A stretch of DNA of 64,000 nt, taken from the NCBI RefSeq assembly GCF_002980525.1, contig NZ_PVBQ01000001.1, forward strand, positions 310,001 through 374,000, read 5' to 3'. The DNA is from Sphingobacterium haloxyli (GTDB lineage Bacteria; Bacteroidota; Bacteroidia; Sphingobacteriales; Sphingobacteriaceae). The notes under the pieces are model-generated. The model was not told where the DNA came from, searched no databases, and saw only the letters and a program-made list of their open reading frames with translations. Shown here piece by piece: positions 15,668 through 50,137 of the stretch. Each line of letters starts with the position of its first letter. The first letter of the stretch is position 1. The translations under genes and the position numbers were made by a program.

Positions 15668-15702
15668 ATGCTTATTATTACTTGGATTTATCTTCGATGA
15701 GC

Positions 15703-18298: not shown

Positions 18299-18305
18299 AT
18301 GACGA

Positions 18306-18968: not shown

Positions 18969-19002
18969 ATCTATTTATTATTTTATTGTGTGTTTCTGGA
19001 CG

Positions 19003-20502: not shown

Positions 20503-20503
20503 C

Positions 20504-21487: not shown

Positions 21488-21559
21488 CTAATTATCTTTT
21501 TTTATTTTATGATTTATATCTCGGTTTCATATGTAAATGATCTATTTTCATACACAATA

Positions 21560-23065: not shown

Positions 23066-23066
23066 A

Positions 23067-24663: not shown

Positions 24664-24712
24664 CTATTTGGTTTATTTTTTGTTTATAATGGCGCACTAA
24701 AGCGCGCGTATT

Positions 24713-25681
24713 TTACGCTTTTTCGGCGGTATGCAAGAGCTCCAAGGCTGCTGTCGCGATTCCCGCGCCGTTGATACCGTAGTGATCGAAGATATACTGC
24801 TGCGAACCGGTGACGGTATATTCATCCGGAATCCCCATGATATGGAAGGCATTGTGATGGCGTCCCTGTAGTAAGAACGCCGCACAGGCTTCGCCCAAAC
24901 CACCGTTCACACTATGCTCTTCTACGGTAAGGATAGGCATGCCTTTTTCTCGCAGCTCAGTGAGCAATGTCGTATCCAGCGGCTTCACCGTGTGCATACT
25001 GACAACCATGGCTTCCAAGCCCTCCGACGCCTGGAGCATTGCTGCAGCATCCATCGCCGGGTGAACTGTTTCACCGGTAGCCAAAATAACCATATCCTTG
25101 CCTTCGCGCAGTACGCGACCTTTACCAAACGTAAACGGCACATCCTCTCGAAGTATGGGCATCGGTCGCTTGCCAAAACGTATATACACCGGGTGGTCGG
25201 ACACTGCGGCTTGTTGCACCGCTTCTCGGGTCTCAAAATTATCCGCAGGCGCGCAAACCACTATATTGTGAATTGCTCGCAGTGCAGCATAATCGTGTAG
25301 ACTATGATGTGTCGATCCTAATGCGCCGTAGCTGACCCCCGCGCTGATGCCCACCAACGTAACCGGATTGTCCGAATACGCTACATCGTTCTTGATCTGT
25401 TCCAACGATCTTGCTGTCAGAAAACACGCTGGCGACACGGCAAAAACCTGTTTTCCTGTAGATGCCAGCCCGGCGGATATTCCCACCAGATTCTGCTCTG
25501 CAATGCCCACCTCGACCAGCTGGCGTGGAAAGCGTTGCGCAAAGGGCACCAGTTTTCCCGATCCTCTGGAGTCGCTTGTAACCACCAACAGCCCCTTATT
25601 TGTTTCTGCAATCTGTTGCAACGTCTCCGAAAACACCTCCAGATTCGCTTTTCCCATTTTAATTTCCTTGTTCATATCCAA
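24713..25681 (-). CDS. Split transketolase, C-terminal subunit (candidate apulose-4-phosphate transketolase)
   Basis: 322 residues, covering only the pyrimidine-binding and C-terminal transketolase domains. The cofactor Glu is in VEVGIAEQNLVGISAGLA; the C-terminal domain has KDMVILATGETVHPAMDAA and VEEHSVNGGLGEAC. It lies 12 bp after the gene for the N-terminal subunit. Split transketolases are often used for special substrates; the known apulose-4-phosphate transketolase (AptA/AptB) is split in this manner and gives xylulose 5-phosphate and DHAP. With the FucI-like isomerase upstream and FGGY kinase downstream, this role fits well, but a housekeeping transketolase cannot be excluded from sequence alone. 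Confidence 0.92.
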   Translation of the reverse strand: MDMNKEIKMGKANLEVFSETLQQIAETNKGLLVVTSDSRGSGKLVPFAQRFPRQLVEVGIAEQNLVGISAGLASTGKQVFAVSPACFLTARSLEQIKNDVAYSDNPVTLVGISAGVSYGALGSTHHSLHDYAALRAIHNIVVCAPADNFETREAVQQAAVSDHPVYIRFGKRPMPILREDVPFTFGKGRVLREGKDMVILATGETVHPAMDAAAMLQASEGLEAMVVSMHTVKPLDTTLLTELREKGMPILTVEEHSVNGGLGEACAAFLLQGRHHNAFHIMGIPDEYTVTGSQQYIFDHYGINGAGIATAALELLHTAEKA

Positions 25682-25693
25682 GCCCGTTTTTAA

Positions 25694-26512
25694 TTAAAGC
25701 GCCAAAAGAGCGTCATCCAATTCCTTTTGTGCCTGTTCATACTCCTGTTCACTTGGCACACCGTGGTGCCATTTCAGTACATTTTCCATGTAACTGATAC
25801 CTTTACCTTTGATCGTATGCGCGATGACCAAGCTAGGTTTCTCCGTAGTTAGCGGGAGTGAGCGAAACGTTTCCTCCAATTCATCAACATCATGTCCATC
25901 CACTTCGATCACCTCCCAGCCGAAACTTTTAAACTTATCAGCTACTGGATCTGTATTACACACCTCTCGAGTAGGGGCCGAAATCTGCAACTGATTATAA
26001 TCGATGATCGCACAAAGGTTATCCAATTTATAATGCGCAGCGGTCAGCGCGGCCTCCCAGTTCGATCCTTCTGCCAATTCGCCATCACCCATCAGGGTAA
26101 ATACTTTGTAATCTTTCGCGTCGAGCTTTCCGGCAATTGCCATGCCGACACTCAAGGAAAGACCATGCCCTAGGGCTCCTGTATTCTGCTCTACACCCGG
26201 CACCTTTCGGGTGGGATGCCCGATGAAATGCGAACCTCCTTGGCAAAGATTTTCCAGTTCGACTTCGGGGAAAAAACCCTGATCGGCCAATACAACAAAG
26301 AGCGCCTCCACACAATGCCCTTTACTCTGGATGTAACGGTCCCGATCGGGACTATCAAAGTTTGAAGGTCCTACGTGCATAACCCTATTATAGAGCACAT
26401 TCAATATGTCTACGCAGGATAGACTACCTCCAGTATGCCCCGCTTTTGCTTTATAGATATATTTTAGAATACGCTTTCGGTATTCAATTGATTTTTTTGC
26501 TAACGATTCCAT
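25694..26512 (-). CDS. Split transketolase, N-terminal (thiamine diphosphate-binding) subunit
   Basis: 272 residues from the ATG at 26510-26512 (MESLAKKSIEYRK); another ATG six codons earlier overlaps the isomerase gene by 14 bp and is less likely. It has GHTGGSLSCVDIL, GALGHGLSLSVGMAIAGK and the thiamine diphosphate motif GDGELAEGSNWEA followed by IIDYNQLQ. It pairs with the C-terminal subunit 12 bp downstream. An AAGG/GGATAAGGG stretch precedes the chosen start. The context is the candidate D-apiose run. It should act in the cytoplasm, moving two-carbon units between sugar phosphates. Confidence 0.92.
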   Translation of the reverse strand: MESLAKKSIEYRKRILKYIYKAKAGHTGGSLSCVDILNVLYNRVMHVGPSNFDSPDRDRYIQSKGHCVEALFVVLADQGFFPEVELENLCQGGSHFIGHPTRKVPGVEQNTGALGHGLSLSVGMAIAGKLDAKDYKVFTLMGDGELAEGSNWEAALTAAHYKLDNLCAIIDYNQLQISAPTREVCNTDPVADKFKSFGWEVIEVDGHDVDELEETFRSLPLTTEKPSLVIAHTIKGKGISYMENVLKWHHGVPSEQEYEQAQKELDDALLAL

Positions 26513-26516
26513 TCCC

Positions 26517-27929
26517 TTATCCTTTATCATGGTTGTAGACTTCCCAATCGAAGTAATTCCCTAGTGCTTCTTCCAATATCTTCGCTGTTCGAGAGGCATT
26601 CATGACGACATGATGTTCGAAGCCATTACGGCATACGTACTGCATCAGCCCCTGCAAATCCGGGATGCGTGCCACTGCACGGTTACCGAACGTATTTAAT
26701 TCATCGTCCGTAAGCTCTCCTTCACCTATATACACTTTGATCTTGCCTTGCATATCATCCGTACTGATCCGTCCATACGTCAATGGCGATGCCGGCGTCC
26801 GTCCGTCCAACGCCCCCCAAGTATTTTCTACACCCAGAGACGATCCTAAGATGGGTGCGTTGCTGATTTCTATATCCGGTAAGAATGCCTTTGCCCAATT
26901 CCCACAGTGAAACAACACGGTTTTATTCGGGTCGTCGGCATAGTTATTATTCCAATCCACCAACGCACTTGGCGAACCGGAGGCCAATTGCATAGCGTAC
27001 ATGGTCAAGGTGCCCGTAACATCCACTTCACAGGCGCTTGGGAGCATATTTTCACTCATCATGCTCATGGAAGTACACACGTTACAACCAAAATTCTGTT
27101 GCAACGAGGTCCAACATTGCAATGCCGTGGCATCCAAGGCATGTTCTTCGACAAACTCCTGCAACACAAAATCCAGCTTGGCCATCTGCACCAACGATTC
27201 ATCCGGCGTCAGTCCGCGTTTAGCATAATTGGTTATAGCTTCTATCCGTTGCTTCACAATCGTATCATCATCTTTGATTCGGTTTGCACGCCCCAATATC
27301 TCGGAGAGATCGGCCGTTACAACGGTGATACCGTTGCGCTGCAATATCTTTTCGCTGTAGCGTACAGTGTTGAAGCCCCCTGGCCGAGCGCCGATCGCTC
27401 CAATCCGCATGCCTTTTATTCCGCTAACGACACGGCATACAGCGGCGAAATCACCTATTTCCTGTTTGAAATCTGCATTATCCGGACGGATGACATGTTG
27501 CTCCGTTAAACTATATTTTATGCCGTATTGGTATAGGTTATTGCAAACGGAAATCTTTCCACACCATGCGTCGCGCCGACGGGCAACATCCAGTTTGTCA
27601 AGGTCGTCCGGATATGCTTGCACGAGCACGGGCACATCTAAGCCCGACAGCCGAATGGTTTCGGCCATTCCGCGTTCGTCGCCAAAATTGGGCAATATCA
27701 CTAATATCCCCATAATCTCCTCACGATGGGCTTTAAAAAGGTTAGCACATTTCTGGGCGTCAGCAAAGGTTTCCACGCCGCCTAATTTCGTATCAGACTC
27801 CGCTAACATAACATAGTCCAAACCCAGCTCATCCAACACCGCTTTCACCTCTTTTCGCGCAGTTCCCACCAAGTGATCCGGAAAAAAATCACGATTTCCA
27901 AAAATGACACCAAAAACTCCTGTATTCAT
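26517..27929 (-). CDS. L-fucose/L-arabinose isomerase-fold protein (candidate apiose isomerase)
   Basis: 470 residues, similar in fold to the FucI/AraA superfamily: N-terminal flavodoxin-like part (GVFGVIFGNRDFFPDHLVGTARKEV), a central part with IGAIGARPGGFNTVRYSE, and a C-terminal part with CEVDVTGTLTMYAMQLASG and VLFHCGNWAKAF. Glu and Asp in CEVDVTG are likely metal ligands, and the His in LFHCGN likewise. It is the first enzyme gene after the DeoR regulator (42 bp gap). Aldose-ketose isomerisation before phosphorylation is expected; in this context D-apiose to D-apulose is proposed. A different aldose, such as fucose or arabinose, remains possible. Confidence 0.82.
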   Translation of the reverse strand: MNTGVFGVIFGNRDFFPDHLVGTARKEVKAVLDELGLDYVMLAESDTKLGGVETFADAQKCANLFKAHREEIMGILVILPNFGDERGMAETIRLSGLDVPVLVQAYPDDLDKLDVARRRDAWCGKISVCNNLYQYGIKYSLTEQHVIRPDNADFKQEIGDFAAVCRVVSGIKGMRIGAIGARPGGFNTVRYSEKILQRNGITVVTADLSEILGRANRIKDDDTIVKQRIEAITNYAKRGLTPDESLVQMAKLDFVLQEFVEEHALDATALQCWTSLQQNFGCNVCTSMSMMSENMLPSACEVDVTGTLTMYAMQLASGSPSALVDWNNNYADDPNKTVLFHCGNWAKAFLPDIEISNAPILGSSLGVENTWGALDGRTPASPLTYGRISTDDMQGKIKVYIGEGELTDDELNTFGNRAVARIPDLQGLMQYVCRNGFEHHVVMNASRTAKILEEALGNYFDWEVYNHDKG

Positions 27930-31303: not shown

Positions 31304-32695
31304 CTATTCGTCTTTAAATAATAGTTTTTCTAAATTTTCATAACCGTGTATCGCGTTAGATGGCAAATTTTCCCCATTCGCCCCAAAAGCGTATAACGCG
31401 TTTTCTTCTTCTATGATACAGTCTGACTCGTCATAATCACCGGCTGCATTTTTAACCCGCTGCGTATTCAGACCAAAATGCTTGCTGATAAAATCGTAAA
31501 CAGGTTTACGTTTGGAATAACCGAAATCATGGCCATCCTCGGGGAGATGTACATTTTCCACCAATTCGGTTTCTCCGTAATAGCCATATATTTTTTGGAG
31601 ATAAGGGAAATCATGTTGGCGCATGTGTGCTGTCCAATCTTTGCCGTCCGAGATTACTAACTGTGGTCTGGGCGCCGCCATAGCCGCCAATTCAACATTA
31701 TTTGTTCCACCGGCACTCGCATGTATAGGCATCCCACTCTCGCAAGGGCATCCCCCATAGAAATAGGAAGACAACGAAACGACCGGAACGCTCAACGTAA
31801 TACGGTCATCCAGCGCGGTCATCAGTACCGTCTGACTGCCACCCCCAGAACCTCCGCAGATACCCACGCGTGTCGTATCGATCTGACTATCTTGTAACAT
31901 CCAATCTAGTATACGTATAGCTCCCAATGTTTGAACGGTCAACGACAAGCTCTTGCGGTGGTCGCTATACTGAAATTGTAGGCCGGACTCTCCCCAGCCA
32001 AAAAGATCGTAACTCACGGCAACCGCACCCATTTGTGCGGTCATCGCGCAGCGAATCTGCGCGTCCTTCCGGAAACGATGACCAGCCCAATGTCCATCTG
32101 GACTCAACATCAGCGGCACCTTACCTTTTGATTTCAAAGGTCTATATATCGAACCGTTAACATATAAGCCGGGCATGATCTCCAAAGCAAAATTTTCCAC
32201 GGTATAGTTCTTAAACTTCCGTTTTTTTGTAACCAAGGGTACTGACTGCGGTCGTGGAGGCAAAGGCGACAGCTTCAAGGCTTTGTACAAATCCGGCCGA
32301 ATCTGTTGTTTCCGTTGTTCCCAGCTGTCCCTATCCTGATACCGCGAGGCCAATTGATCGAGATAATCCCATCCGTCCTGCGGCTCCCATCGGTAATATT
32401 CATATTCTTTTAGCTTATATTTACCTTTCCCTTCTTTATTCGCCTTTAGATCCAACGGAGCTAATAAATTTCGAAGGGTCTCATCCACATCTGCACGGAA
32501 ACGCCACGCGGCGTAATTCAACGATTTGCCCGCTACGAGCTTTTGATCATACTTGATATCGATATTGTATCGCTCTTCCACGATATGGATAACATCCTCA
32601 AGCGGCATACGGTATCTATCATCCGAATTTTGTGCCCTACTAAAATGGATAAAACAGCACAAGTATACCAAAGTGGTAATGACGACTTTTCTCAT
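31304..32695 (-). CDS. Secreted alpha/beta-hydrolase esterase with an N-terminal STN-like domain
   Basis: 463 residues, signal ending near residue 21 (HFSRAQ). Residues about 28-95 resemble the secretin/TonB short N-terminal domain: MPLEDVIHIVEERYNIDIKYD, then DVDETLRNLLAPLDLK. Residues about 170-400 form an alpha/beta hydrolase with nucleophile Ser283 in GICGGSGGGSQT and likely Asp350 (VISD) and His389 (EDGHDFGY). Acetyl-xylan-esterase-like proteins of this kind are found in pectin loci, and an RG-II pectin methylesterase (BT1017) is an alpha/beta hydrolase. Removal of methyl or acetyl groups from pectin is likely. It overlaps the symporter gene upstream by 4 bp (ATGA). Confidence 0.8.
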   Translation of the reverse strand: MRKVVITTLVYLCCFIHFSRAQNSDDRYRMPLEDVIHIVEERYNIDIKYDQKLVAGKSLNYAAWRFRADVDETLRNLLAPLDLKANKEGKGKYKLKEYEYYRWEPQDGWDYLDQLASRYQDRDSWEQRKQQIRPDLYKALKLSPLPPRPQSVPLVTKKRKFKNYTVENFALEIMPGLYVNGSIYRPLKSKGKVPLMLSPDGHWAGHRFRKDAQIRCAMTAQMGAVAVSYDLFGWGESGLQFQYSDHRKSLSLTVQTLGAIRILDWMLQDSQIDTTRVGICGGSGGGSQTVLMTALDDRITLSVPVVSLSSYFYGGCPCESGMPIHASAGGTNNVELAAMAAPRPQLVISDGKDWTAHMRQHDFPYLQKIYGYYGETELVENVHLPEDGHDFGYSKRKPVYDFISKHFGLNTQRVKNAAGDYDESDCIIEEENALYAFGANGENLPSNAIHGYENLEKLLFKDE

Positions 32696-34254
32696 GATTC
32701 TATTCCCCTTTCGCGGTCAAGCCGGCGGTTTCTTTTCCATCCCCTATAGTACAGATTAGAATCTAATACAGGTTTTGGAAAAAATAAACTAGCCAAATAG
32801 CCGACAACAACAACGACCAAGTGGCTATATACCCCCAGCATCATCTTATGATGCGTAAAATTATATTCACCCAAATCCAACAGAAGAAACGTGTTTCCTC
32901 CAAATTCAATCTCGGTGCTGGTTAAAAATGCGTAAGCAGTAAACAGCACACACACCGCAATCGCAATATTTATTCCTTGGCTATTCGCGCGTTCGGTGAA
33001 AATACCCAATAAGAAAATACCGACTATACCGCCCGAAAATATCGCGTATAGTGTAAAGATAATACCCAGGATACTTTCGCTCCCTAGTTCCACGTAGATA
33101 AAGCCAATAATCATGGAAATGGCTCCCGCAATGGCGACCATCCAACGACTAGCACGGAGATATTCGTTATCCACACGCTCGGGACGCAGTTTTTTGTAAT
33201 AATCTTCGATGCCTACGGCCGCTAGCGAGTTGAGGTCAGCACTAAGGCTACAAATAGCCGCAGAAATCATCGCCGCCAGGATAAATCCGACCACGCCCAC
33301 AGGCAATTGTGTCATGATGAAATACGGAAACACGCTATTGGGACCTATATTATCGGGTAATGGTTGTTGCATATAGTACACGAAAAGCGCTGTACCAATA
33401 AACATAAAAAGCGACCATACCGGAACCGTTAGTAAAATCCCCATTAACGACGCACGGATCGCCGATTTATCTGAACGTGCGGTTAGATACCGTTGGATGA
33501 CGGTTTGGTCTGTCCCATACTTTTGGATCGCATAAAACATTCCGTTGATGGCCATCACCACAAAAGTCAACCGCGTAAAATCCAGATCATACGGCCCGAA
33601 TCCTGTCCTCCCGCTTTCGGAGGCCACCCGCCACACTTCCGGAAAGCCACCATTCACGGAGAAGATAATAACGAGCAAACATAAAATTCCGCTGGCGAAG
33701 AGCATGAATCCCTGAAATACATCGAGCCAGATGACCGCCTCAATACCACCAAGCAAGTTCACAATAACAATGATGCTTCCCACCACGAGAATAATCCAAT
33801 ACGTGTTGATGTTCGTCATGCTCGATAGCGCCACCGCGAGAAGATACAGCACTGTTCCCATTCCAGAGAACTGACGCAATACAAACGCAATGGAACTATA
33901 ATAGCGCGCAAAATTGCCAAAACGCTTCTCAAAATACTCATAGGTACTCAGGCCAATTACCTTTCGGTACAACGGTACAATAAACCATACGGTGCCCATC
34001 AGCACAATAGGCACCATCAGCCCTTGAACCAGTAGTATCCAATTATTAGCGTACCCTTCGGCGGGATACCCTAGAAAAGTGACACTACTAATCAGAGTTG
34101 CCAACAACGACATACCTATCGCCCAAGACGGCACACGCCCTTTGGCAGAAAAATAGGCTTCAGTAGACTTCTGATTTTTTGCATATCGAAGTCCAAAGTA
34201 TAAGGTAATCAATAAAACGGCTATAATTATTCCGTAATCAAATATGCTCAACAT
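32692..34254 (-). CDS. Sodium:solute symporter family transporter (SSS)
   Basis: 520 residues with about 13-14 membrane helices. Family segments: FGLRYAKNQKSTEAYFSAKGRVPSWAIGMSLLATLISSVTFLG, and GVVGFILAAMISAAICSLSADLNSLAAVGIEDYYKKL (helix 8 region). SSS members carry sugars, amino acids and sialic acid with sodium; the sialate carrier SiaT is one. It sits beside a DUF1537 kinase, PdxA2 and a NAL-type aldolase, which suggests a sugar-acid cargo, possibly the RG-II acid Dha or Kdo. Gap to the kinase gene upstream is 39 bp. Confidence 0.92.
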   Translation of the reverse strand: MLSIFDYGIIIAVLLITLYFGLRYAKNQKSTEAYFSAKGRVPSWAIGMSLLATLISSVTFLGYPAEGYANNWILLVQGLMVPIVLMGTVWFIVPLYRKVIGLSTYEYFEKRFGNFARYYSSIAFVLRQFSGMGTVLYLLAVALSSMTNINTYWIILVVGSIIVIVNLLGGIEAVIWLDVFQGFMLFASGILCLLVIIFSVNGGFPEVWRVASESGRTGFGPYDLDFTRLTFVVMAINGMFYAIQKYGTDQTVIQRYLTARSDKSAIRASLMGILLTVPVWSLFMFIGTALFVYYMQQPLPDNIGPNSVFPYFIMTQLPVGVVGFILAAMISAAICSLSADLNSLAAVGIEDYYKKLRPERVDNEYLRASRWMVAIAGAISMIIGFIYVELGSESILGIIFTLYAIFSGGIVGIFLLGIFTERANSQGINIAIAVCVLFTAYAFLTSTEIEFGGNTFLLLDLGEYNFTHHKMMLGVYSHLVVVVVGYLASLFFPKPVLDSNLYYRGWKRNRRLDRERGIES

Positions 34255-34293
34255 AAGGTTTATCTATCATTATTCGACATTACATCGATTGGG

Positions 34294-35403
34294 CTAAAAT
34301 ACCCATAATTCTTCTGTCCACGGATAACTTCCTGGCTTCAATGTTACCGTCAATGCTACTTCGGGCACATGATTCCGAATAACACCCTGCCCATACTCCC
34401 ATGTGGGCACGAGCGTGTCGATACCAAGCACTTCCAATATTGCCCGAGCTGTTGCACCTCCCTCAATGACCAACTCATGCAGTGTATACTCCTGATAAAG
34501 AATAGCGAGCACTTGTGCAATATGCTCCCGGACGATTGCTGCATCGCAACGCACCGTGGGAGCAACGGCTAGTATCACTTTGCCATATTTATCCATCTTG
34601 CGACAAATAGTTTTTGCCACTTCTTCTTCTTCACCAATATCCGCCCAATATACCACTTTATTGGTATTAACCGTCGCAATACGTTCGATACTGCTTTCAT
34701 GACGGGACCCACACACATATAATACAGGCGTTTGAGGCAGGGGATCCAAATTATTCGATACCGGACGCTGCTCTGTCTGCTGACGAAGCAAAGCATCAAA
34801 AAACGCAGCACCTCCCGCGCAGATCCCAAAAGATATTCCTACAGAAGCCCAACTATCCAAGCCTGCTTCGTCTTTGACTGCGGCAACGGTGTATGGCGGC
34901 TTTACTGTCGATAATGTTTTTACATCGTCCGTCAGATGCCAAGATTTGGCACCAAGGGTCTCCAATATACGACTTTTTGTTACCGGGAACTCGGGATCCT
35001 GCGCGAAGTCGGTTTCCGCAATAGGCTTGCCACTAACCCAATACACGCCATCTTTAATGACACGCCCCAATGCCGGATTAACGGGACAAAAGACTACATT
35101 ATCCTTTTGGAAAAAAGTCCGATAGAAGGATATCTCTTCTTTGATATGCCCACGGAGTGCTGAATCAAACTTGAGGTATATCCAGTCCCATTTGAGGCCT
35201 TTGTCCAGCAAAAATGTCGTTTGCAGGTGAAGAAGCACTTCATCCGCTTTTAGCGACCGTGTATTTGTATTCAGAATCCGAACATCTTTACTTATTGGCG
35301 ATGCTAATGTATGCACGATCTCTACCGATAATCCGTGACGCAAGACCATCCCGCCTATTTCGGCAGCACCAGTCAAATCATCCGCAATTACCAATATCGC
35401 CAT
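34294..35403 (-). CDS. DUF1537 four-carbon acid-sugar kinase (candidate D-threonate kinase)
   Basis: 369 residues, shorter than the copy at 14288. N-terminal domain: MAILVIADDLTGAAEIGGM, NTNTRSLKADE, YLKFDSALRGHIKEEI, VFCPVNPALGRVIKDGVYWVSG. C-terminal nucleotide domain: LVIEGGATARAILEVLGI and TLKPGSYPW. The ADDLTGA, DSALRGH and NPA motifs are typical of DtnK/LtnK-type kinases. It lies 6 bp after a PdxA2 gene, the standard partner: kinase makes 4-phospho-threonate and PdxA2 oxidises it to DHAP. D-threonate is favoured, erythronate or L-threonate are alternatives. Confidence 0.92.
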   Translation of the reverse strand: MAILVIADDLTGAAEIGGMVLRHGLSVEIVHTLASPISKDVRILNTNTRSLKADEVLLHLQTTFLLDKGLKWDWIYLKFDSALRGHIKEEISFYRTFFQKDNVVFCPVNPALGRVIKDGVYWVSGKPIAETDFAQDPEFPVTKSRILETLGAKSWHLTDDVKTLSTVKPPYTVAAVKDEAGLDSWASVGISFGICAGGAAFFDALLRQQTEQRPVSNNLDPLPQTPVLYVCGSRHESSIERIATVNTNKVVYWADIGEEEEVAKTICRKMDKYGKVILAVAPTVRCDAAIVREHIAQVLAILYQEYTLHELVIEGGATARAILEVLGIDTLVPTWEYGQGVIRNHVPEVALTVTLKPGSYPWTEELWVF

Positions 35404-35409
35404 CAGATT

Positions 35410-36435
35410 TTATTTATTTAAAGCCAATTGTACAGCCGATTCAATGGCCAACACCATAGCATCGGGACTAGCCACGCCTTTGCCCGCAATTTCAAAAGCT
35501 GTTCCGTGATCTACGGAGGTTCGAATAATGGGCAGCCCCATCGTAATGTTCACGCCTTTCACACTATCCATTTGTTTCTTCTCCGCATTCCATTTAAAAC
35601 CGGTGAGCTTAAATGGAATATGTCCCTGATCGTGATACATCGCGACAATACCGCCATAGTAACCCGTAGCTGCTTTCGAAAAAAGCGTATCCGCAGGTAC
35701 AGGCCCTTCTACGTCATATCCCCTTTTACGTGCTTCTTCTACCGCCGGCACAATTTCCTCATCGTCTTCCGTACCGAATAGCCCTGAATCTCCAGCGTGT
35801 GGATTAAGCCCAGCTATACCGATTTTAAGGTTGGTTTCTCCCAGACTAGCTAGCCCTTGATGCAGTAATTCCGTGACCTCCACGATACGGTCTTTTTTCA
35901 CCAAATCACAAGCTTCGCGCAATGGTACATGGGTGGACACGTGAATAACTTTCATGTTTTCCTCCACGAGAAGCATGGCATATTTCTTTGTCTGGGTGTA
36001 ATGTGCATAGATCTCTGTATGACCTGCAAAATGGTGGCCTGCTTCGTTTACAGATTTCTTATTGATCGGCCCGGTTACAGTGGCATCTATTTCTCTTTTC
36101 AGCGCTAGATCGATCACCTTTGTAACCGCTTCAAACGAAGCATTTCCCGCTTCCGCCGATATCTCTCCAAACGTGATTTTAGCTAAATCCGTGTTCTTCA
36201 AGTCCAATACATCAGCCTCTCCCGAAACAAATTGAGCTTTCGAAACCTCATCGATGGCGTGAACGTTGATAGGTAGCTGCAGTTGCGATATGATTTGTTG
36301 AAAAACAGCCGCATCGCCAACTAAAATAGGTCTGCAAATATCCTGCACACGTGTATCCAACAATGCTTTTAATGCGATTTCGGGACCAATGCTCGCCGGA
36401 TCCCCCATCGTGATCCCAATAATTGGCTTATACAT
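35410..36435 (-). CDS. pdxA2: PdxA2-type 4-phosphothreonate dehydrogenase
   Basis: 341 residues of the PdxA family. Motifs: ITMGDPASIGPEIALKAL near the start, GPINKKSVNEAGHHFAGHTEIYAHYT, GLNPHAGDSGLFGTEDDEEI and AMYHDQGHIPFKL, with the metal-binding His residues in GHTE and YHDQGH. Pairing with a DUF1537 kinase (6 bp gap downstream) marks it as the catabolic PdxA2 rather than the vitamin B6 enzyme. It oxidises 4-phospho-D-threonate or -erythronate and the product decarboxylates to DHAP. It overlaps the aldolase gene upstream by 8 bp. Confidence 0.92.
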   Translation of the reverse strand: MYKPIIGITMGDPASIGPEIALKALLDTRVQDICRPILVGDAAVFQQIISQLQLPINVHAIDEVSKAQFVSGEADVLDLKNTDLAKITFGEISAEAGNASFEAVTKVIDLALKREIDATVTGPINKKSVNEAGHHFAGHTEIYAHYTQTKKYAMLLVEENMKVIHVSTHVPLREACDLVKKDRIVEVTELLHQGLASLGETNLKIGIAGLNPHAGDSGLFGTEDDEEIVPAVEEARKRGYDVEGPVPADTLFSKAATGYYGGIVAMYHDQGHIPFKLTGFKWNAEKKQMDSVKGVNITMGLPIIRTSVDHGTAFEIAGKGVASPDAMVLAIESAVQLALNK

Positions 36436-37366
36436 GACTTATTAAATTCAGTTTAATGTTATCTTTTGTTATCAAAGCTTGAAAAGCTTCCACAATATGC
36501 GTTTCTTCCTGTTCGCTCAAGGTGTATAAAGGGGGCATCATAAACGATTCACATAGGCCCAATTGTTTCATTAGCACCTTAAGTGCCCACAACGATTCCC
36601 CTAAAGACTTATTTGACTGATATAATGCACCTAGATCATCCGATTGCTTTTGTAAAGCGTAAGCACTTTCCAAATCACCTTGTTCCGCTGCGCGGCACAT
36701 ATCTCGGTATATCGCGGGAGCAAAATTCGCCGAACTGGGCACGACGCCATCACTACCGTTAATTAGGGAATGTGCAGAGGCTCCCGCCCAGCCCATATAG
36801 TGTTTGAAATCCGTCCGATCGCGCCATAAATCCAAGGATTGGTCTATTCGTTCCATATTACGCTCTGAATCTTTCACCGCAACAATTTTCGGATGATGGC
36901 TCAGCCGTTCTAACAGATTCAGCGGAATAGACATGTGTGTCGTCGCAGGAATATTATAGGCGATCAGGTTAGGTTCAATAGCCTCTGCTAAGTCTAAGTA
37001 ATATTTCTCTATCTGTACATCCGACAACTTATAATAGGTTGGCAATGTAGCCGCTACTTCGGATACCCCTAATTCGAACGCCAGATTCGCAAAAGAAATA
37101 GAGTCTTCGAGAATATTAGATGAAATACCCACATATAGTTTTTCCCCTTCGGGTCTATTAACAACAGCTGATCTTAAATATTCTTCTTTAAAAGTATTAG
37201 ACAACGATGCTGATTCGCCAGTAGTCCCTAAGATAAAAGGCGTGGCTCCATTAGCATACAAATAGGAAAATATACGGGATACCGCATCTTCATCTAAACT
37301 TAAATCTTGTTTCAACGGTGCAACCACCGGAACAATCGTTTCTTTTCTTGTTTTTATTTCTTTCAT
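36428..37366 (-). CDS. DapA/N-acetylneuraminate-lyase family class I aldolase
   Basis: 312 residues, one TIM barrel. Key motifs: LGTTGESASLS, AYNIPATTHMSIPL (Tyr137) and VAVKDSERN (Schiff-base Lys165). The family cleaves or forms 2-keto-3-deoxy acids with release of pyruvate. It is linked by overlaps and a 2-bp gap to PdxA2 and an iron alcohol dehydrogenase, and lies two genes from a sialidase-like propeller. Retro-aldol cleavage of Dha, a C7 diacid of RG-II, to pyruvate and a C4 aldehyde-acid is proposed. Kdo lyase (pyruvate plus arabinose) or sugar-acid dehydratase activity are alternatives. Confidence 0.9.
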   Translation of the reverse strand: MKEIKTRKETIVPVVAPLKQDLSLDEDAVSRIFSYLYANGATPFILGTTGESASLSNTFKEEYLRSAVVNRPEGEKLYVGISSNILEDSISFANLAFELGVSEVAATLPTYYKLSDVQIEKYYLDLAEAIEPNLIAYNIPATTHMSIPLNLLERLSHHPKIVAVKDSERNMERIDQSLDLWRDRTDFKHYMGWAGASAHSLINGSDGVVPSSANFAPAIYRDMCRAAEQGDLESAYALQKQSDDLGALYQSNKSLGESLWALKVLMKQLGLCESFMMPPLYTLSEQEETHIVEAFQALITKDNIKLNLISHV

Positions 37367-37368
37367 TT

Positions 37369-38520
37369 TTAGTAGGCAGCATTAAATATTGATACGGCAT
37401 CTTGCAATGTAATCTCTCTAGGGTTGTTGACTAACAACCTCGTAATCTTCATGGCGTCCTCCGCCATCTTCGGAATAGCCTCTTTCGGTATTTCTACATC
37501 GCGCAGTCGAGCAGGGATACCGCAAGCATTGATTAATGTCCTGACTCGTTCGATGCCCGCACGAGCTGTTTCTTCGTCGGTAGCTAAACGGCTGCATCCT
37601 AAAGCAACCGCCACTTCAGCGTATTTTTTGGGTGATGCCACGTAATTATATTCCATAATATAAGGCAGTAAAAGTGCGTTGGAAAGACCATGGGCCAAAT
37701 GAAACATACTGCCCAACGGATAAGACAACGCATGAACTGCTGCCGTATTCACTGGGCCTAAACAGAAGCCACCCAGCATACTTCCCATCGCAACATGATA
37801 TCTCGCTTCTTCGTTCTTTCCGTTATGAACAGCTTCTTTTAGGTTCTCTGCTATCAAGCGCATGCCCTCATAAGCGTACATATCGACAAAAGGTTGGGAA
37901 AACTTATTGGTATAGGCTTCCAAGCAATGCGTCAGGGCATCCAAACCCGTCGCTGCGGTAATAGCTGGCGGCACACCAATCGTAAGCAATGGATCTACAT
38001 ATACCTTATCCGGAACCAGATAAGGACTGATGATTCCTTTTTTCTGATTTTCGTCATCCACCAGAATCGCATTCGGGGAAACCTCGCTTCCCGTTCCAGC
38101 GGTAGTCGGCACACAGATAAGACCTTTATTCCGGCCTTTTAATAGACCGTTTCCGACGATCTCTTCCAACGATTGCGCGTTCTCCAGTTGTGCAGCGACT
38201 AATTTCGCTACGTCTAATACACTTCCACCACCGATACCGATAACCGCATCCGCCGCCACAGTTGAAAGTTGCTGCAATACCATTTTTACATCTGAAAAGG
38301 TAGGTTCTTGCTCGATACTGGTATCCGTCGACACATCGATCTTATTCCGCTCCAATATTGCTACAAAATCAGCTAGCTGTCCTAAAAGTGGCTTAATTGT
38401 CATGATAATGACGGCTTTATACCCCTGCTTCACCACATCTTCGGCTAGCTGCTTCAGCACTCCATTTCCAAAAACCAAGCTCCCCGGAAAGCTAACCCTT
38501 GTTATCCGATCTATTGACAT
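37369..38520 (-). CDS. Iron-containing alcohol dehydrogenase
   Basis: 383 residues. N-terminal NAD-binding motif GIGGGSVLDVAKLVAA (about 97-112), CVPTTAGTGSEVSPNAI, and metal-ligand segments GLDALTHCLEAYTNKFSQP and FHLAHGLSNALLLPYIMEYN. All four expected metal ligands (Asp, His, His, His) appear to be present. It is 2 bp from the aldolase gene, so the two probably act in sequence: reduction of the aldehyde made by the aldolase. In the proposed Dha route this would give D-threonate. Cytoplasmic, no signal peptide. Confidence 0.93.
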   Translation of the reverse strand: MSIDRITRVSFPGSLVFGNGVLKQLAEDVVKQGYKAVIIMTIKPLLGQLADFVAILERNKIDVSTDTSIEQEPTFSDVKMVLQQLSTVAADAVIGIGGGSVLDVAKLVAAQLENAQSLEEIVGNGLLKGRNKGLICVPTTAGTGSEVSPNAILVDDENQKKGIISPYLVPDKVYVDPLLTIGVPPAITAATGLDALTHCLEAYTNKFSQPFVDMYAYEGMRLIAENLKEAVHNGKNEEARYHVAMGSMLGGFCLGPVNTAAVHALSYPLGSMFHLAHGLSNALLLPYIMEYNYVASPKKYAEVAVALGCSRLATDEETARAGIERVRTLINACGIPARLRDVEIPKEAIPKMAEDAMKITRLLVNNPREITLQDAVSIFNAAY

Positions 38521-38537
38521 ATTATTTCGACATCTAA

Positions 38538-39689
38538 TTATTCTTCTTCTGCTTTATAAGTTTCTAGCTTTGGCAATGTATAACCCTTCACTTCGGGCCA
38601 AGCACCGTCCTTTATCGCTCTTTTCTTTAATTTTTTAGGGTTGACGACCACATGTTTCATTTTTTGTCTCCTCCAAGTATAAGCGAAATGCAATAGACCA
38701 TCACTTGTTTGTATAACCGCCGGGTAAGAGTACTGACTGATCGGTGAATCTTCTAAGATCAATACCGCGTCCCATTTCTTACCATCTTTCGATATGGAAA
38801 CATTTAACGGGGTCCGTGGCCCTTTCGGATTTTCTGGTGGAGGTAATACGTGGTTATAAACCAGTACATGCGTTCCGTTTTCCATCGTGACAGCATCCGT
38901 GCCCGAGTTATTATTAGGCAAACTTGTTTTGCGCAATGGCGTCCAAGTTTCACCATAGTCATCCGACCATGATTCCACCAGCGCCCAATTACGGCTTCTT
39001 GCCAAAATCTGTAGTTTGCCGTTTCCGTGATCTAAAACACTGGGCTGAATCGCCTGGAGGCTATCTTCTCCCGTTGCGATCGGTCCGACCTTGCGCCAAG
39101 TCTTCCCGAAATCGGGTGTAATTTCAAAATGAATATTCCAGCCATCCCCTTCTGTACTGCTTGGACAAATCAAGTTGCCATTGCTCAGCAAGACAGGCTT
39201 GTTCTTAATGGGGCCAAGAAATCCTTCCGGTAATTTTTCCGCATCCGACCATGTTTTCCCACCATCAGTTGAGCGTTTCAACAGGCCCCACCATTCGGAT
39301 GGTTTAGGCCCTACTTTATAAAACAACAGTAAGTCGCCATTGGGAATCTGATACAGTACCGGGTTCCAGGTGGGCAAGCGGCTTCCGTCTTTCTGCACAC
39401 CATCAGCAACAGATTGCGGTCCTGTCCACTGCCCATTTTCATACCGGCAGATATAAATTTCTACGTCGGGATTGCGTTCCCTCGTTCCGCCAAAAAGGGC
39501 GTACACCAAGTTGCCTGCCGTCGTTTCCACGATACTCGCCGAATGACAAGAAGGAAAACTGGCTTTATCATAGATAAACTCATTGGTGACAATACCTTTT
39601 TGCCACTTGTGGAGTGCATTTTGCTGTGCCTGCGTTCCAACGAGGAACAAAAAACTAATAATAACGGATAAACCTATTTTATTTTTCAT
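38538..39689 (-). CDS. Secreted sialidase-like (Asp-box/BNR) beta-propeller protein
   Basis: 383 residues with signal ending near GTQAQ (residue 22). Propeller repeats include Asp boxes STDGGKTWSD, TPDFGKTWRK and SDDYGETWTP. The early segment SCHSASIVETTAGNLVYALFGGTRERNPDVEIYI is typical of the predicted-neuraminidase group found in pectin loci, but the RIP arginine motif of true GH33 sialidases is not visible there. It overlaps the DUF3826 gene by 11 bp and lies 17 bp before the alcohol dehydrogenase gene. It may release a 2-keto-3-deoxy acid or another terminal acid sugar from RG-II; this is not proven by residues seen. Confidence 0.8.
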   Translation of the reverse strand: MKNKIGLSVIISFLFLVGTQAQQNALHKWQKGIVTNEFIYDKASFPSCHSASIVETTAGNLVYALFGGTRERNPDVEIYICRYENGQWTGPQSVADGVQKDGSRLPTWNPVLYQIPNGDLLLFYKVGPKPSEWWGLLKRSTDGGKTWSDAEKLPEGFLGPIKNKPVLLSNGNLICPSSTEGDGWNIHFEITPDFGKTWRKVGPIATGEDSLQAIQPSVLDHGNGKLQILARSRNWALVESWSDDYGETWTPLRKTSLPNNNSGTDAVTMENGTHVLVYNHVLPPPENPKGPRTPLNVSISKDGKKWDAVLILEDSPISQYSYPAVIQTSDGLLHFAYTWRRQKMKHVVVNPKKLKKRAIKDGAWPEVKGYTLPKLETYKAEEE

Positions 39690-45952: not shown

Positions 45953-47791
45953 TTATTTCAATTTTTCTGCTTGGAAAAGCGATATCGCATATGCAGCTTC
46001 TCTATCTACCTCGTCAGCATCTTCCACATCAAAGTCCTGATCCGTTGGTGTATCGGCATCCGGATACCGACGCACGTCCCCTGTCCGGAACGATACACGG
46101 CTAATTTCACTTACCGGCTGGAAAAATAACCGGGTGCCTTTTTCCGTTCCGTTGATCTTGACTTGATAGGAACGCGTCTGTACATCTACCGTCAACTCCA
46201 TATGGTAGGTTTTTCCAGCATCATAAGAATGTAAGCCAGACAACCGATAACCGGCCTTGTTTTTAATCTGTCCGTCTGCATCAAACACTATACGGGCCGC
46301 TGCTTGTCCTAAATCATTGACAAGCTCGATTTGTAAGCTGCCGTGGTCCGCCTGCTGTGGTGTAACCGTAAAAGCAATTTTTACTTTCTCCGAAGATTCA
46401 ATTACCCGTTCCGCTTTCGCATAGTCAAACTTATCTTTATCCCGTAACATCAAGGCATTATCTTCTACCTTGACAGATGCCCATAGCGGACTATATATAT
46501 TCCATTGGTTGAATACCTCGGTCGCATTTTTTGAGAAGTCGTCATGTACTTTATCCTCGACGACTGCCGTAATCGGTACGGGTACTTTCGACACCCACAT
46601 ATCTTCTTTGTTTATGCTGTACGTCACCCACATATTACCATCTGGCGGCAAGCCGTTCCCCTCCTGTATCCCTCTCGGGTATTGTGGCCCATACGACTTA
46701 TAGTTCCCGCCGTAACGCATGGTGGTGATTTCACCGTTGATCAATAGCAAATCGGTATACGTTAAGCCGTCGTTGCTTGTAGATACCGCTAAAGGCCAAC
46801 GAAACTCCGACGGGTTGTAAACGGTGGCAAAGCGATTGTCGGATGTCCGTTGGCCCCATATTTTAGCGTTACTGTTTACAAAACCTGGTGCACGCAAAGG
46901 ATCGTACGCCCAACTTTTGCCTTTATCTTTGCTTACCGATGTCAGCGCATGCTTCCACATACCCACCACATCGCCGTTATCCAATGTATAATAAGCAAAC
47001 GCCTTTAGCGGACGATTGTAAGGAATCAAAGGGTCGTCACGATCGGCTTCTTCTACCCACTGTTGCATTTGCAAGGGTTGCTCCATTAGCTCCTTGCATG
47101 CTTGCACAAATGCCTTGTCTTTACTCTTTGTATACAGCGGGTATATCGCTAACTTTTGGTCAAATGAAGAATTAAAACGAATAAAATAAATAGGTCCGAA
47201 AGAACCGTCTTTCTTAATTTCCCGGACGACACGTCCTACGCCATATCCGTCGTTAGGGCTGTCTTTTGCATCGAGTGCTACCCCGTAATACCCGATAGTT
47301 AACAGTTTACCATTTTTAGCCGTGTAAAACCCCATACGCTGGTGCATAATCGCGTATAAATCTTTACCAGCTTTGTCGGTTCTACCGGGCTTACTAAAAC
47401 CTTCCGGCACCGGATAAGGAGGGAAAAGCTCGATAGGATCCGACCAGTTATAGCCATCCTTGGAGGTCTGGAGTACGGATTTACCTTTGCCGATATGCTC
47501 CCCCACAGGATTACCTAAAAACTGTAAATAATAAGTTTCGTTCCAGTACGCTAAAAACGGCTGATGATTATAGGTGAAATCGTGTCCGCCTGCTCGTTCT
47601 GGATACGCTCTGCTTGCCCGGAAGGTTTGTATATTGTGCGTCCCCACCGCGGGTTTCAGCTGCCCATGGTGATAGTCTACGTTAGACAGGGTCTTTCCTA
47701 CGTATTTCATCGTATCTTGTGCCGAAGCACCATACGCCGCACATAACAAGGTAATTCCTAATATCGTTGATCTCATCTTTTTATCACTCAT
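45953..47791 (-). CDS. Secreted seven-bladed propeller, GH145/PL-like, with C-terminal sandwich
   Basis: 612 residues; the start may be five codons later (MRSTILGITLLCAAYGASAQ), which gives a cleaner signal. Residues about 28-420 form a propeller of the type seen in GH145 and related rhamnose-glucuronate enzymes: VDYHHGQLKPAVGTHNIQ, HDFTYNHQPFLAYWNETYYL (His76), LFPPYPVPEGF, GVGRVVREI. Residues about 430-612 resemble a jelly-roll or LamG-like sandwich (DHGSLQIELVNDLGQAAARIVFD). A catalytic His and lyase or hydrolase chemistry are known for relatives; which one applies here is uncertain. It lies between GH2 (20 bp) and GH43 (13 bp). Confidence 0.75.
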   Translation of the reverse strand: MSDKKMRSTILGITLLCAAYGASAQDTMKYVGKTLSNVDYHHGQLKPAVGTHNIQTFRASRAYPERAGGHDFTYNHQPFLAYWNETYYLQFLGNPVGEHIGKGKSVLQTSKDGYNWSDPIELFPPYPVPEGFSKPGRTDKAGKDLYAIMHQRMGFYTAKNGKLLTIGYYGVALDAKDSPNDGYGVGRVVREIKKDGSFGPIYFIRFNSSFDQKLAIYPLYTKSKDKAFVQACKELMEQPLQMQQWVEEADRDDPLIPYNRPLKAFAYYTLDNGDVVGMWKHALTSVSKDKGKSWAYDPLRAPGFVNSNAKIWGQRTSDNRFATVYNPSEFRWPLAVSTSNDGLTYTDLLLINGEITTMRYGGNYKSYGPQYPRGIQEGNGLPPDGNMWVTYSINKEDMWVSKVPVPITAVVEDKVHDDFSKNATEVFNQWNIYSPLWASVKVEDNALMLRDKDKFDYAKAERVIESSEKVKIAFTVTPQQADHGSLQIELVNDLGQAAARIVFDADGQIKNKAGYRLSGLHSYDAGKTYHMELTVDVQTRSYQVKINGTEKGTRLFFQPVSEISRVSFRTGDVRRYPDADTPTDQDFDVEDADEVDREAAYAISLFQAEKLK

Positions 47792-47804: not shown

Positions 47805-48719
47805 TCACTTATCCAACAACCTATTCAAATCCTTTTTGGAAGCTTTGAAGATCGTTCCGTGTTTATGTCCTTCTGGGACGCTAATCTTATCGTTAACTTT
47901 TTTGAACGTTTTAAAATCTGTGGTTGACACCGCTTCATAGCTTTTGCTACCATAGGAGTCAAAATAGATCAACCACTCACCCCCCAATTTGATCACACTA
48001 GGCCCTTCTGTTTTAAAATCAGAATACGGCTCCGACACATTTTCGTAAGGCCCTAACGGATTGTCCGCAAAAGCGACTTTCAAATTACGATTCGGACGTG
48101 TGTTGTCTTTTAATACCAATACATAATCGTCTTTATCTTTCTTTACAATCACCGCATCGATGATGCTGAAACCGGGATCCGCAAATAGTTTGGTTTCTGT
48201 AAACGTTTCGAAATCCTTGGTCGTCGTGTAGTACATTCGATGGTTGTTTCTTTCTTCCTCTTCCCCTTTCGGAAAACGTTCTGGAATAGTTGACGCCCAG
48301 ATAATAATAAACCGGTCTTCATCTTCATCGTAGAACAGTTCTGGCGCCCAGATATTCACGGTGCTAGTTTCATGTTCCATAACGGGCACGATCTTTTTGT
48401 TTTCCCAATGGATAAGATCTTTAGACGAAGCATACCCGATACCTTCATTTCCTTGCCAGCCGATTGTCCAGACCAAATGATAAATTCCTTTATCATCACG
48501 CACCATGGACGGGTCACGCATAATCTTCTGTTCGCCTAATTCGGGTTTCAGAAAGATACCATCAATTGCTGTCCAGGAATAGCCATCTTCACTGTAGAGA
48601 TAGCGTAGCCCTTCATCGGCGGGTTCACGAAAAGAAGTAAACATATAAACATCCCTCTGGCACGAAGCCAAAAGGGATGCCGCTAACACAACAACTAAAA
48701 GATTTAATTTTGTTCTCAT
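47805..48719 (-). CDS. GH43-family lipoprotein glycosidase
   Basis: 304 residues, lipobox LLASC with Cys20. A single five-bladed propeller carries the GH43 acid residues: Asp69 in RDPSMV (base), Asp188 in IIDAVIV (modulator) and Glu238 in TEGPSVI (acid), plus NIWAPELFYDED. Such enzymes remove alpha-L-arabinofuranose, beta-xylose or galactose. The subfamily is not resolvable by eye; one resembling GH43_18 enzymes from RG-II loci is possible. Its start overlaps the GH140 stop by one base, so the two are co-translated. Confidence 0.88.
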   Translation of the reverse strand: MRTKLNLLVVVLAASLLASCQRDVYMFTSFREPADEGLRYLYSEDGYSWTAIDGIFLKPELGEQKIMRDPSMVRDDKGIYHLVWTIGWQGNEGIGYASSKDLIHWENKKIVPVMEHETSTVNIWAPELFYDEDEDRFIIIWASTIPERFPKGEEEERNNHRMYYTTTKDFETFTETKLFADPGFSIIDAVIVKKDKDDYVLVLKDNTRPNRNLKVAFADNPLGPYENVSEPYSDFKTEGPSVIKLGGEWLIYFDSYGSKSYEAVSTTDFKTFKKVNDKISVPEGHKHGTIFKASKKDLNRLLDK

Positions 48720-50137
48720 TATAAACTATCTAAAATCAGCACCCAATCAGTCCCATCTTTTGCTTCTCCCGCTGGTTTGAATGTTTGTACACCTGTATTT
48801 TCTACCTCACCAATAACGGTCTCTTCGCCATTTCGCGGATTGAACCAAGAGGCTTTCACTTTGTCTCCTTTAATTTTACCCATATTGATTTTCATTTCTC
48901 TACCGTTGTAATTGTAGATAAATGCATAGTTATCCGTACGGGTTGCTAGTAAACGGTTATACTTTTCACCATTTTCAGCAATCAGCGTCTGGTCCGGAAC
49001 GCGCTCAAAATAGGCATCTCTGGACAACATTAAATCTTTTAAATACTGCATTTGCGATGCTCCCGGTGCATTTAGCCCTTCGGTCCAGAGCTCCGACGAG
49101 CCATAGGCTGTCGTCGAATCGGTTGCCGAGTGCATTTGCATAACCGAATTCTGTCCATAGGTATATCCAAACGCTCCTGCAAATACAGACCAATATCCAT
49201 AGCGACGCACATCGTGGTCTTTCCAACGTGGTTCTTTAATATCATGTAGACCTTGTGGAATTCCCTCATACGACGGTTCGCCATCAATGGTTGGCTTTAC
49301 AGGACTTAATGCCCAGTCGACCTCCATAAATTTCCAGTTGTCCTCGCCATAGTGTTTATTTTCATTGCGGGAGGTATCTTGATCGTAACGTCTGTGACCA
49401 GATTGCACCATATTAAAATCCAACCACGATTCGTTGTGAAACCAATCCGAAGAAGCAGTTCTGCCCCGCGGATGAAAAGTCATTAGGTGATTTTGATCGA
49501 TCGCCTTAATGGTTTTTCCCAATTCCAACCAAGCGGCAGTAGAATCCGAACCGTGGATATCGCCTCCGTTCAACCAAATGATATTCGATTTATCTTTCCA
49601 GCGTTCGGCTAGAAACGTGCCGTATTCAGTAGCCTGTTTTACCGACATCATTCCAGCTTTCACGGGCGATCCCCATACCGGTACTACAGCCATGTAAATA
49701 CCTTTTTCTGCTGCTTTATCAATAATATAATCGACGTGATCCCAATAGTCATATTCTTCGTCCACGTCCGGGTTGTTGCCCTCTGTCACGAGTGGGCGGG
49801 CAATATCCTTATTCACAACCGAGGAATCGCCATAGACATTTACTGACGGAACTGTATGCAACACCATCGCTTGCACCACATTGAACCCTTTTTGTTTTCT
49901 ATCGTCCAAATACTGTTCCGCCTCATCCCTGTTCAGTTTGTTAAACAACAGCCAGCCTGTATCGCCAAGCCAAAAGAAAGGTTTGCCATCGTCAGTGGTC
50001 AGATACCTTCCGTTTTCCGACACCTTCAACGCAGGCATTCCGGTGGACGATGTGTTTTGATCAGAAGGAGATGTACAGGATGATAAAAGTGCTCCTGCGC
50101 ATACAAATGGTAATAATTTTTTACGAATAGACATCAT
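48719..50137 (-). CDS. GH140 apiosidase-type hydrolase, lipoprotein
   Basis: 472 residues, lipobox LLSSC with Cys21. The N-terminal (beta/alpha)8 barrel is of the DUF4038 type with the hallmark PFFWLGDTGWLLFNKLNRDEA. Candidate acid/base Asp193 (LNGGDIHGSD) and nucleophile Glu287 (TIDGEPSYEG) line up with the pair reported for the Bacteroides RG-II apiosidase BT1012. The C-terminal sandwich has KASWFNPRNGEETVIGEV. GH140 removes the D-apiose-linked chain from galacturonate of RG-II, so this enzyme would supply apiose to the catabolic run at 14288-28742. One base separates it from the next upstream gene. Confidence 0.9.
   Translation of the reverse strand: MMSIRKKLLPFVCAGALLSSCTSPSDQNTSSTGMPALKVSENGRYLTTDDGKPFFWLGDTGWLLFNKLNRDEAEQYLDDRKQKGFNVVQAMVLHTVPSVNVYGDSSVVNKDIARPLVTEGNNPDVDEEYDYWDHVDYIIDKAAEKGIYMAVVPVWGSPVKAGMMSVKQATEYGTFLAERWKDKSNIIWLNGGDIHGSDSTAAWLELGKTIKAIDQNHLMTFHPRGRTASSDWFHNESWLDFNMVQSGHRRYDQDTSRNENKHYGEDNWKFMEVDWALSPVKPTIDGEPSYEGIPQGLHDIKEPRWKDHDVRRYGYWSVFAGAFGYTYGQNSVMQMHSATDSTTAYGSSELWTEGLNAPGASQMQYLKDLMLSRDAYFERVPDQTLIAENGEKYNRLLATRTDNYAFIYNYNGREMKINMGKIKGDKVKASWFNPRNGEETVIGEVENTGVQTFKPAGEAKDGTDWVLILDSL

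Follow-up and report, generated by a model that had tools for sequence, protein, structure and literature searches.

A five-gene block of Sphingobacterium haloxyli probably lets the bacterium catabolise 3-deoxy-D-lyxo-2-heptulosaric acid (Dha), a rare acid sugar found in the plant pectin rhamnogalacturonan II (RG-II), via D-threonate, as judged by sequence comparison. The block runs from position 38520 to 32692 on the minus strand of a 64,000-nucleotide window (contig NZ_PVBQ01000001.1, positions 310,001 to 374,000; assembly GCF_002980525.1). The window is the whole stretch of DNA analysed, and positions refer to it throughout. The genome that carries it comprises 4,694,399 bases in 75 contigs. 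The block genes, in order of transcription, and the hydrolase gene discussed with them are as follows.

37369..38520, minus strand: iron-containing alcohol dehydrogenase (Fe-ADH), first block gene, proposed D-threuronate reductase
36428..37366, minus strand: class I aldolase of the DHDPS/NAL superfamily, proposed Dha aldolase
35410..36435, minus strand: PdxA family protein, PdxA2-like, proposed D-threonate 4-phosphate dehydrogenase
34294..35403, minus strand: short DUF1537-type kinase, proposed D-threonate kinase
32692..34254, minus strand: sodium:solute symporter (SSS), last block gene, proposed Dha importer
45953..47791, minus strand: relative of the GH143 (Dha-hydrolase) half of BT_1020, as a stand-alone protein (PF24067 371 bits, PF22585 235 bits)

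A sequence-only reading of this DNA had described the five block genes and an upstream sialidase-like propeller gene as one tight run. Intact minus-strand open reading frames (ORFs) were recovered for all six in the places where it had put them, with matches to the Pfam families SSF, SBD_N (the N-terminal half of DUF1537 kinases), PdxA, DHDPS, Fe-ADH and BNR_2. The run was borne out by its intergenic gaps, which from the BNR_2 gene to an esterase-like gene after the symporter were 17, 2, -8, 6, 39 and -4 bases. Its setting was corrected. The run is part of a larger RG-II locus, and the gene list had left out both the Dha-hydrolase relative and a set of apiose/apionate-like genes in the same window.

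Proposed route from Dha to dihydroxyacetone phosphate

By our own working, Dha comprises a C1 carboxyl, a C2 keto group, a C3 methylene, C4 to C6 in the lyxo configuration and a C7 carboxyl. Dha would be imported by the symporter and cleaved between C3 and C4 by the DHDPS-type class I aldolase, a retro-aldol reaction that would give pyruvate and D-threuronate with C5 and C6 retained (C7H10O8 = C3H4O3 + C4H6O5). Reduction of the aldehyde by the Fe-ADH would yield D-threonate, numbered anew from the carboxyl. The same working agrees with the stereochemical argument of the sequence-only reading, in which cleavage and reduction keep the lyxo C5 and C6 centres and so lead to D-threonate. The kinase would then produce D-threonate 4-phosphate, and the PdxA2-like enzyme would oxidise C3 with loss of CO2 to leave dihydroxyacetone phosphate (DHAP). 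The net reaction would be Dha + ATP -> pyruvate + DHAP + CO2, the reductant used on the aldehyde being regained in the last step provided both enzymes share one cofactor. We infer all substrates, cofactors and the transport step. Among the RG-II sugars considered, Dha alone would, on our own reasoning, employ all five genes.

D-threonate and D-erythronate are reportedly catabolised through a DUF1537 kinase and PdxA2 (Zhang, 2016). The last two proposed steps, phosphorylation and then PdxA2-type oxidative decarboxylation to DHAP, are like those of that pathway. Unlike there, gene order ties the pair in the block to two further enzymes, an aldolase and a reductase for aldehydes, D-threonate would arise midway in the breakdown of a C7 acid, and the kinase is shorter and scores far under the cut-off of the DtnK model. 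The overall logic is that of the D-glucarate/galactarate pathway GarL-GarR-GarK, where a 2-keto-3-deoxy aldarate undergoes retro-aldol cleavage to pyruvate and an aldehyde acid that is then reduced and phosphorylated. Dha, however, is one carbon longer, and its route would use a DHDPS-family aldolase, an Fe-ADH reductase, a DUF1537 kinase and an extra PdxA2 step. Sialic acid catabolism relies on a sialidase, N-acetylneuraminate lyase (NAL) and an SSS transporter. The locus resembles it in bringing together a hydrolase, a DHDPS-family aldolase and an SSS symporter, and differs in that the hydrolase is of GH143 type and outside the block, the aldolase lacks the GYDE motif and the block ORFs include no amino-sugar genes.

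A Dha catabolic pathway was not found described in the open-access literature searched, in keeping with the sequence-only reading, which knew of none. The kinds of enzyme involved are known, and so, reportedly, are the last two steps.

The putative Dha hydrolase and the block across genomes

The protein encoded at 45953-47791, about 7 kb upstream of the block, is by sequence a close relative of a proven Dha hydrolase. Its match to PF24067, the BT_1020-type five-bladed propeller, far exceeded the cut-off of 27 bits, and it aligned to residues 23-605 of 5mqr, the 1108-residue BT_1020 (E 8.6e-229). BT_1020 of Bacteroides thetaiotaomicron is bi-modular, with a Dha-hydrolase site (GH143) that has a Tyr-Glu nucleophile pair and a beta-L-arabinofuranosidase site (PMC6811678, excerpt). 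As in the RG-II degradation of that species, a GH143-type Dha hydrolase accompanies other RG-II enzymes in the window. Unlike BT_1020 (PMC6811678, excerpt), it has no GH142 half attached, and the same locus also holds candidate genes for handling Dha inside the cell.

Gene content, gene order, block behaviour, hydrolase co-occurrence, family placement and the kinase fold were computed directly. Species genomes were scanned with the kinase; 80 loci were kept out of at least 303 relatives, and their neighbours were counted within 10 kb where the contig allowed. PdxA was found near 79 of the 80 kinase genes, the symporter near 76, the aldolase near 74 and the Fe-ADH near 71. The order ADH-aldolase-PdxA-kinase-SSS was kept on a single strand in 60 of the 63 loci with all five ORFs (in two of the remaining three the genes were rearranged, and in one the symporter was inverted). 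Because of this shared order the grouping exceeds chance, and the five genes form a unit. An evenly drawn sample of the phylum gave kinase matches in 6 of 296 genomes including the source genome, one of them a partial match (G203; 29%, residues 3-146) that was excluded from the kinase count. The four good matches outside the source genome all had contiguous Fe-ADH, aldolase, PdxA and kinase genes, with the symporter next in three. One of these runs (G033) abuts apiose-type genes and another (G031) has a Dha-hydrolase relative within 10 kb.

Two further Sphingobacterium genomes (G475 and G579) carry the same RG-II gene order with the five block genes missing, so that the BNR_2 gene adjoins the esterase gene. 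The kinase was sought across both whole genomes and was absent from each. Among named organisms the closest kinase is that of Sphingobacterium gobiense, at 90% identity, where the surrounding genes are 90-100% identical to those of the window.

Two side observations concern the block elsewhere. Divergence is much quicker in the kinase than in the genes around it: its identity is often 31-37% where the PdxA of the same block shows 73-81% (loci L017-L096). Proteins that by eye resemble LacI-type regulators directly precede the block at L088:5802-6803, L090:5767-6798, L077:92-1111 and L094:5828-6847; in the window no gene of this kind was noted next to the block.

PF24067 was above cut-off in 74 of the 80 genomes found through the kinase alone (48 of 50 plus 26 of 30, one of the 26, G595, being a fragment over profile positions 203-236 only) and in 17 of the 296 phylum-sample genomes; the samples were drawn differently and the comparison is descriptive only. 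For the family of the window (251 genomes including the source), full-length matches were required (E<1e-50). The full hydrolase domain was present in 48 of 49 kinase genomes versus 35 of 202 others (Fisher p 1.2e-27, uncorrected for kinship); the tool's own cut-off gives 40 of 202 non-kinase genomes, the five extra being partial. Kinase and hydrolase were at most 50 kb apart in 35 of the 48 genomes and farther apart or on other contigs in 13. A distant family, that of G609, was searched with the L087 kinase as query. Three of its 119 genomes had the kinase, and the hydrolase was present in all three, each time on another contig, versus 1 of 116 others (p 1.5e-5); G609 was known beforehand to carry both genes, and leaving it out gives 2 of 2. 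A Dha-hydrolase match was found nearby at 20 of the 80 kinase loci. This figure includes a fragment just upstream of the block at L088:5303-5711, which matches C-terminal residues 473-611 of the Dha-hydrolase protein.

Loci without the aldolase were also compared. G363, the sole family-sample genome with the kinase and no hydrolase, has its kinase and PdxA genes next to a different transporter; neither aldolase nor Fe-ADH occurs in the 20 kb covered. L058 and L093 likewise have kinase and PdxA. Some 10 kb to either side of these contain neither aldolase nor Fe-ADH, and both genomes are without the hydrolase. L029, L040, L061 and L096 gave no aldolase match on contigs too short to judge. Aldolase-bearing loci came from genomes with the hydrolase in 71 of 74 cases. 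This pattern fits a division in which a lone kinase and PdxA pair would suit plain threonate use and the aldolase and reductase would accompany the Dha hydrolase. Together with the RG-II/GH143 context, hydrolase co-occurrence in two families and the block's absence from two congeners, the missing aldolase and reductase at these three hydrolase-free loci give comparative support to the central proposal of the sequence-only reading, Dha catabolism via D-threonate.

Enzyme assignments and competing explanations

The kinase is short (369 residues). It matched SBD_N at 112 bits, and a Pfam scan gave no NBD_C match. Its structure model (predicted local distance difference test, pLDDT, 92.2) matched eight PDB chains at E<=0.001 over 391-414 alignment columns; the titles name DUF1537 for six of them and a putative tRNA synthase for the other two (3dqq). 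The model indicates a two-domain DUF1537 fold along the whole length. The best curated model for the kinase was the NCBIfam D-threonate kinase.

The block PdxA matched Pfam PdxA at 348 bits. Against PDB sequences it scored 266 bits with 2hi1 (PdxA2), 263 with 6e85 (D-threonate 4-phosphate dehydrogenase) and 204 with 1ps7 (PdxA); the top match was 4jqp (269 bits), titled 4-hydroxythreonine-4-phosphate dehydrogenase. The second PdxA of the source genome, used as a control, gave 181 (PdxA2), 189 (D-threonate 4-phosphate dehydrogenase) and 192 (PdxA) bits. The block protein is thus nearer to PdxA2 than to PdxA by about 60 bits, unlike the other PdxA of the genome. The Fe-ADH matched Pfam ADH_Fe_C at 191 bits and Fe-ADH at 136 bits; its top NCBIfam models, ErcA (261 bits) and lactaldehyde reductase (254 bits), were below cut-off, as were all others. 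The symporter matched Pfam SSF at 128 bits.

The aldolase matched Pfam DHDPS at 148 bits. In a 28-row alignment the Schiff-base lysine K165, Y137 and GTTGE (T48-T49-G50-E51) were invariant in every row, as were KDSE, Arg173 and Trp193, and Arg169 was nearly so. A contact of Arg169 or Arg173 with the far carboxylate is a guess. The DapA arginine is missing (YNIPATT where DapA has YNVPGRT; motif YNVPxRT) and GWAG replaces the GYDE of NAL, which places the protein in neither the DapA nor the N-acetylneuraminate lyase group. The source genome has its own DapA (328 bits with the DapA model) and a NAL-like DHDPS protein (best model NAL, 177 bits, cut-off 281; GYDE kept), each as a separate gene.

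Several results weigh against a Dha pathway of this kind. The kinase scored 107 bits with the D-threonate kinase (DtnK) model, whose cut-off is 450, and the PdxA scored 304 bits with the NCBIfam PdxA2 model, whose cut-off is 583; the sole cut-off passed by the PdxA was that of the generic pdxA model (344 over 290 bits). Since no curated D-threonate cut-off was reached, the functions of both proteins are given as statements of what they work like. The top NCBIfam score of the aldolase was with the DapA model (132 bits, cut-off 206). The phylum sample without the source genome was weak, with the hydrolase in 2 of 4 kinase genomes and 14 of 291 others (p 0.016), and 35 of the 83 hydrolase genomes of the family sample were without the kinase. 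A near relative of the aldolase was absent from all 14 phylum-sample genomes with the hydrolase and without the kinase (best 22-28% identity; block aldolases in the four phylum-sample block genomes showed 38-49%), from which it follows that many RG-II degraders would waste Dha or use another route. Four genomes (L079, L055, L090, G074) have the block and no hydrolase. The co-occurrence statistics take no account of kinship, and co-occurrence alone cannot single out Dha among RG-II sugars because RG-II genes travel together.

Two observations concern these exceptions. A different DHDPS and SSS pair lay near the hydrolase in 5 of the 14 hydrolase genomes without the kinase, extra flanking sequence being taken for nine of the 14, in some cases from a single side. 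Such pairs in kinase-free genomes, close to Dha hydrolases (L143:8329-10772, L145:17383-19999), are possible other routes for Dha or 3-deoxy-D-manno-octulosonic acid (Kdo). The four hydrolase-free block genomes are candidate scavengers of free Dha. Dha also occurs in the scales of the alga Mesostigma (PMC1413533, excerpt), which might account for some of them.

It is unlikely that the block serves Kdo, the other 2-keto-3-deoxy sugar of RG-II, with the aldolase yielding pyruvate and D-arabinose. In its favour, cleavage of Kdo is NAL-type chemistry, the RG-II context would be shared, and side chain C of RG-II contains Kdo (PMC12282258, excerpt). Against it, a different set of DHDPS, FucI-like isomerase and SSS genes, which would suit D-arabinose, is present in the source genome, apart from its RG-II genes, and near RG-II genes elsewhere (L149, L151 and L107). 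D-arabinose, moreover, is not known to be a substrate for a pair of four-carbon-acid kinase and PdxA2. The candidate Kdo-to-D-arabinose set, whose DHDPS has LSSE for GTTGE, was seen at L161:6280-10415 (source genome, contig C2), L149:7159-12529, L151:6542-11845 and L107. The alternative DHDPS of L149 was also considered as a substitute Dha aldolase; this was unsupported, since 96 of the 251 family genomes carry the gene, among them genomes that have kinase and hydrolase and genomes that lack them.

Equally improbable is an arrangement in which the kinase and PdxA use environmental threonate or erythronate, the aldolase and Fe-ADH act on some other, unconnected sugar acid, and the RG-II neighbourhood is one of convenience. 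The kinase and PdxA pairs without adjoining aldolase or Fe-ADH in G363, L058 and L093 would agree with it, as would the complete or near-complete blocks in four hydrolase-free genomes. The presence of the hydrolase in nearly all genomes with aldolase loci speaks against it, as does the behaviour of the four enzyme genes, which are together in nearly all loci and jointly absent from G475 and G579.

Slightly less probable again is action on another RG-II component, namely aceric acid or acids derived from L-galactose or galacturonate. The joint travel of RG-II genes, which keeps co-occurrence by itself from picking the sugar, leaves room for this, but by our own reasoning no route from these compounds could be drawn in which a pyruvate aldolase and an aldehyde reductase work together with a four-carbon-acid kinase and PdxA2. 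That the aldolase is a sialate or 2-keto-3-deoxygluconate (KDG) lyase in a sialic-acid or hexuronate cluster is very improbable and was rejected: the NAL and archaeal KDG-aldolase models match it (105 and 114 bits) and a sialidase-fold protein adjoins the block, but these scores are far under the cut-offs (281 and 390), GYDE is missing while a separate NAL-like gene keeps it, and neither cleavage produces a four-carbon acid.

The surrounding RG-II locus and implications

Dha catabolism via D-threonate remains the preferred reading of the block, which sits within an RG-II utilisation locus comprising glycoside hydrolase (GH) genes of families GH140, GH141, GH78, GH2 and GH28, a GH43-like gene, a DUF6298 gene, a pectate-lyase-like gene and two SusCD pairs. 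Three of its genes are detailed here.

38538..39689, minus strand: BNR_2 protein with sialidase fold (Pfam BNR_2 303 bits), belonging to RG-II loci and outside the block
31304..32695, minus strand: alpha/beta-hydrolase, esterase-like (Pfam GCE_fung 36 bits and other weak matches), flanking the block
48719..50137, minus strand: GH140-type apiosidase (Pfam Apiosidase 395 bits), RG-II context

The sialidase-like propeller of the sequence-only reading does have a sialidase fold. Its structure model (pLDDT 87.8) gave a best VIA Z of 36.6 (NanI; root-mean-square deviation 2.2 over 312 residues). The protein is near only 42 of the 80 kinase loci and is also kept, with 56-71% identity, in ten RG-II loci that lack the block; because of this conservation it is probably not the enzyme that releases Dha. 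It was set aside as Dha hydrolase, a GH143 relative also being present. As a guess, it may release the Kdo of side chain C.

A second gene set (14288-27929) encodes an OiaK-like kinase, an OiaX-like RuBisCO-like protein, a split transketolase, an FGGY kinase, a FucI-C protein, an ABC transporter and a DeoR regulator. The OiaK-like kinase (405 bits) and OiaX-like protein (480 bits) were assigned by their best models, both below the cut-off of 700. These genes look like those of apiose/apionate catabolism, reportedly described by Carter in 2018. A second special sugar of RG-II would thus have its intracellular genes close to the block. Both systems would serve a special RG-II sugar from the same window with a DUF1537 kinase. 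They differ in that the apiose/apionate-like set comprises other genes with other chemistry, and the block kinase gave no match to the OiaK model.

RG-II is reported to be conserved across plants (PMC12168206, abstract). Enzymes that dismantle it are known, and the intracellular fate of Dha, a hallmark sugar of RG-II among others, was not found described in the open literature searched. The present analysis names the genes, proposes the order of reactions and identifies congeners with and without the block. An aldolase specific for Dha might also be run in reverse to make it, which would be useful because Dha standards are lacking (PMC12168206, excerpt). On balance, and with less confidence than is placed in the substrate itself, the block is favoured as a complete, net redox-neutral Dha pathway that has spread among Bacteroidota as a single cassette of five genes, which RG-II loci have acquired or shed. 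Numerous degraders of RG-II would then release Dha uneaten, and bacteria with the block and no hydrolase would feed on their leavings. The pattern predicts cross-feeding on Dha.

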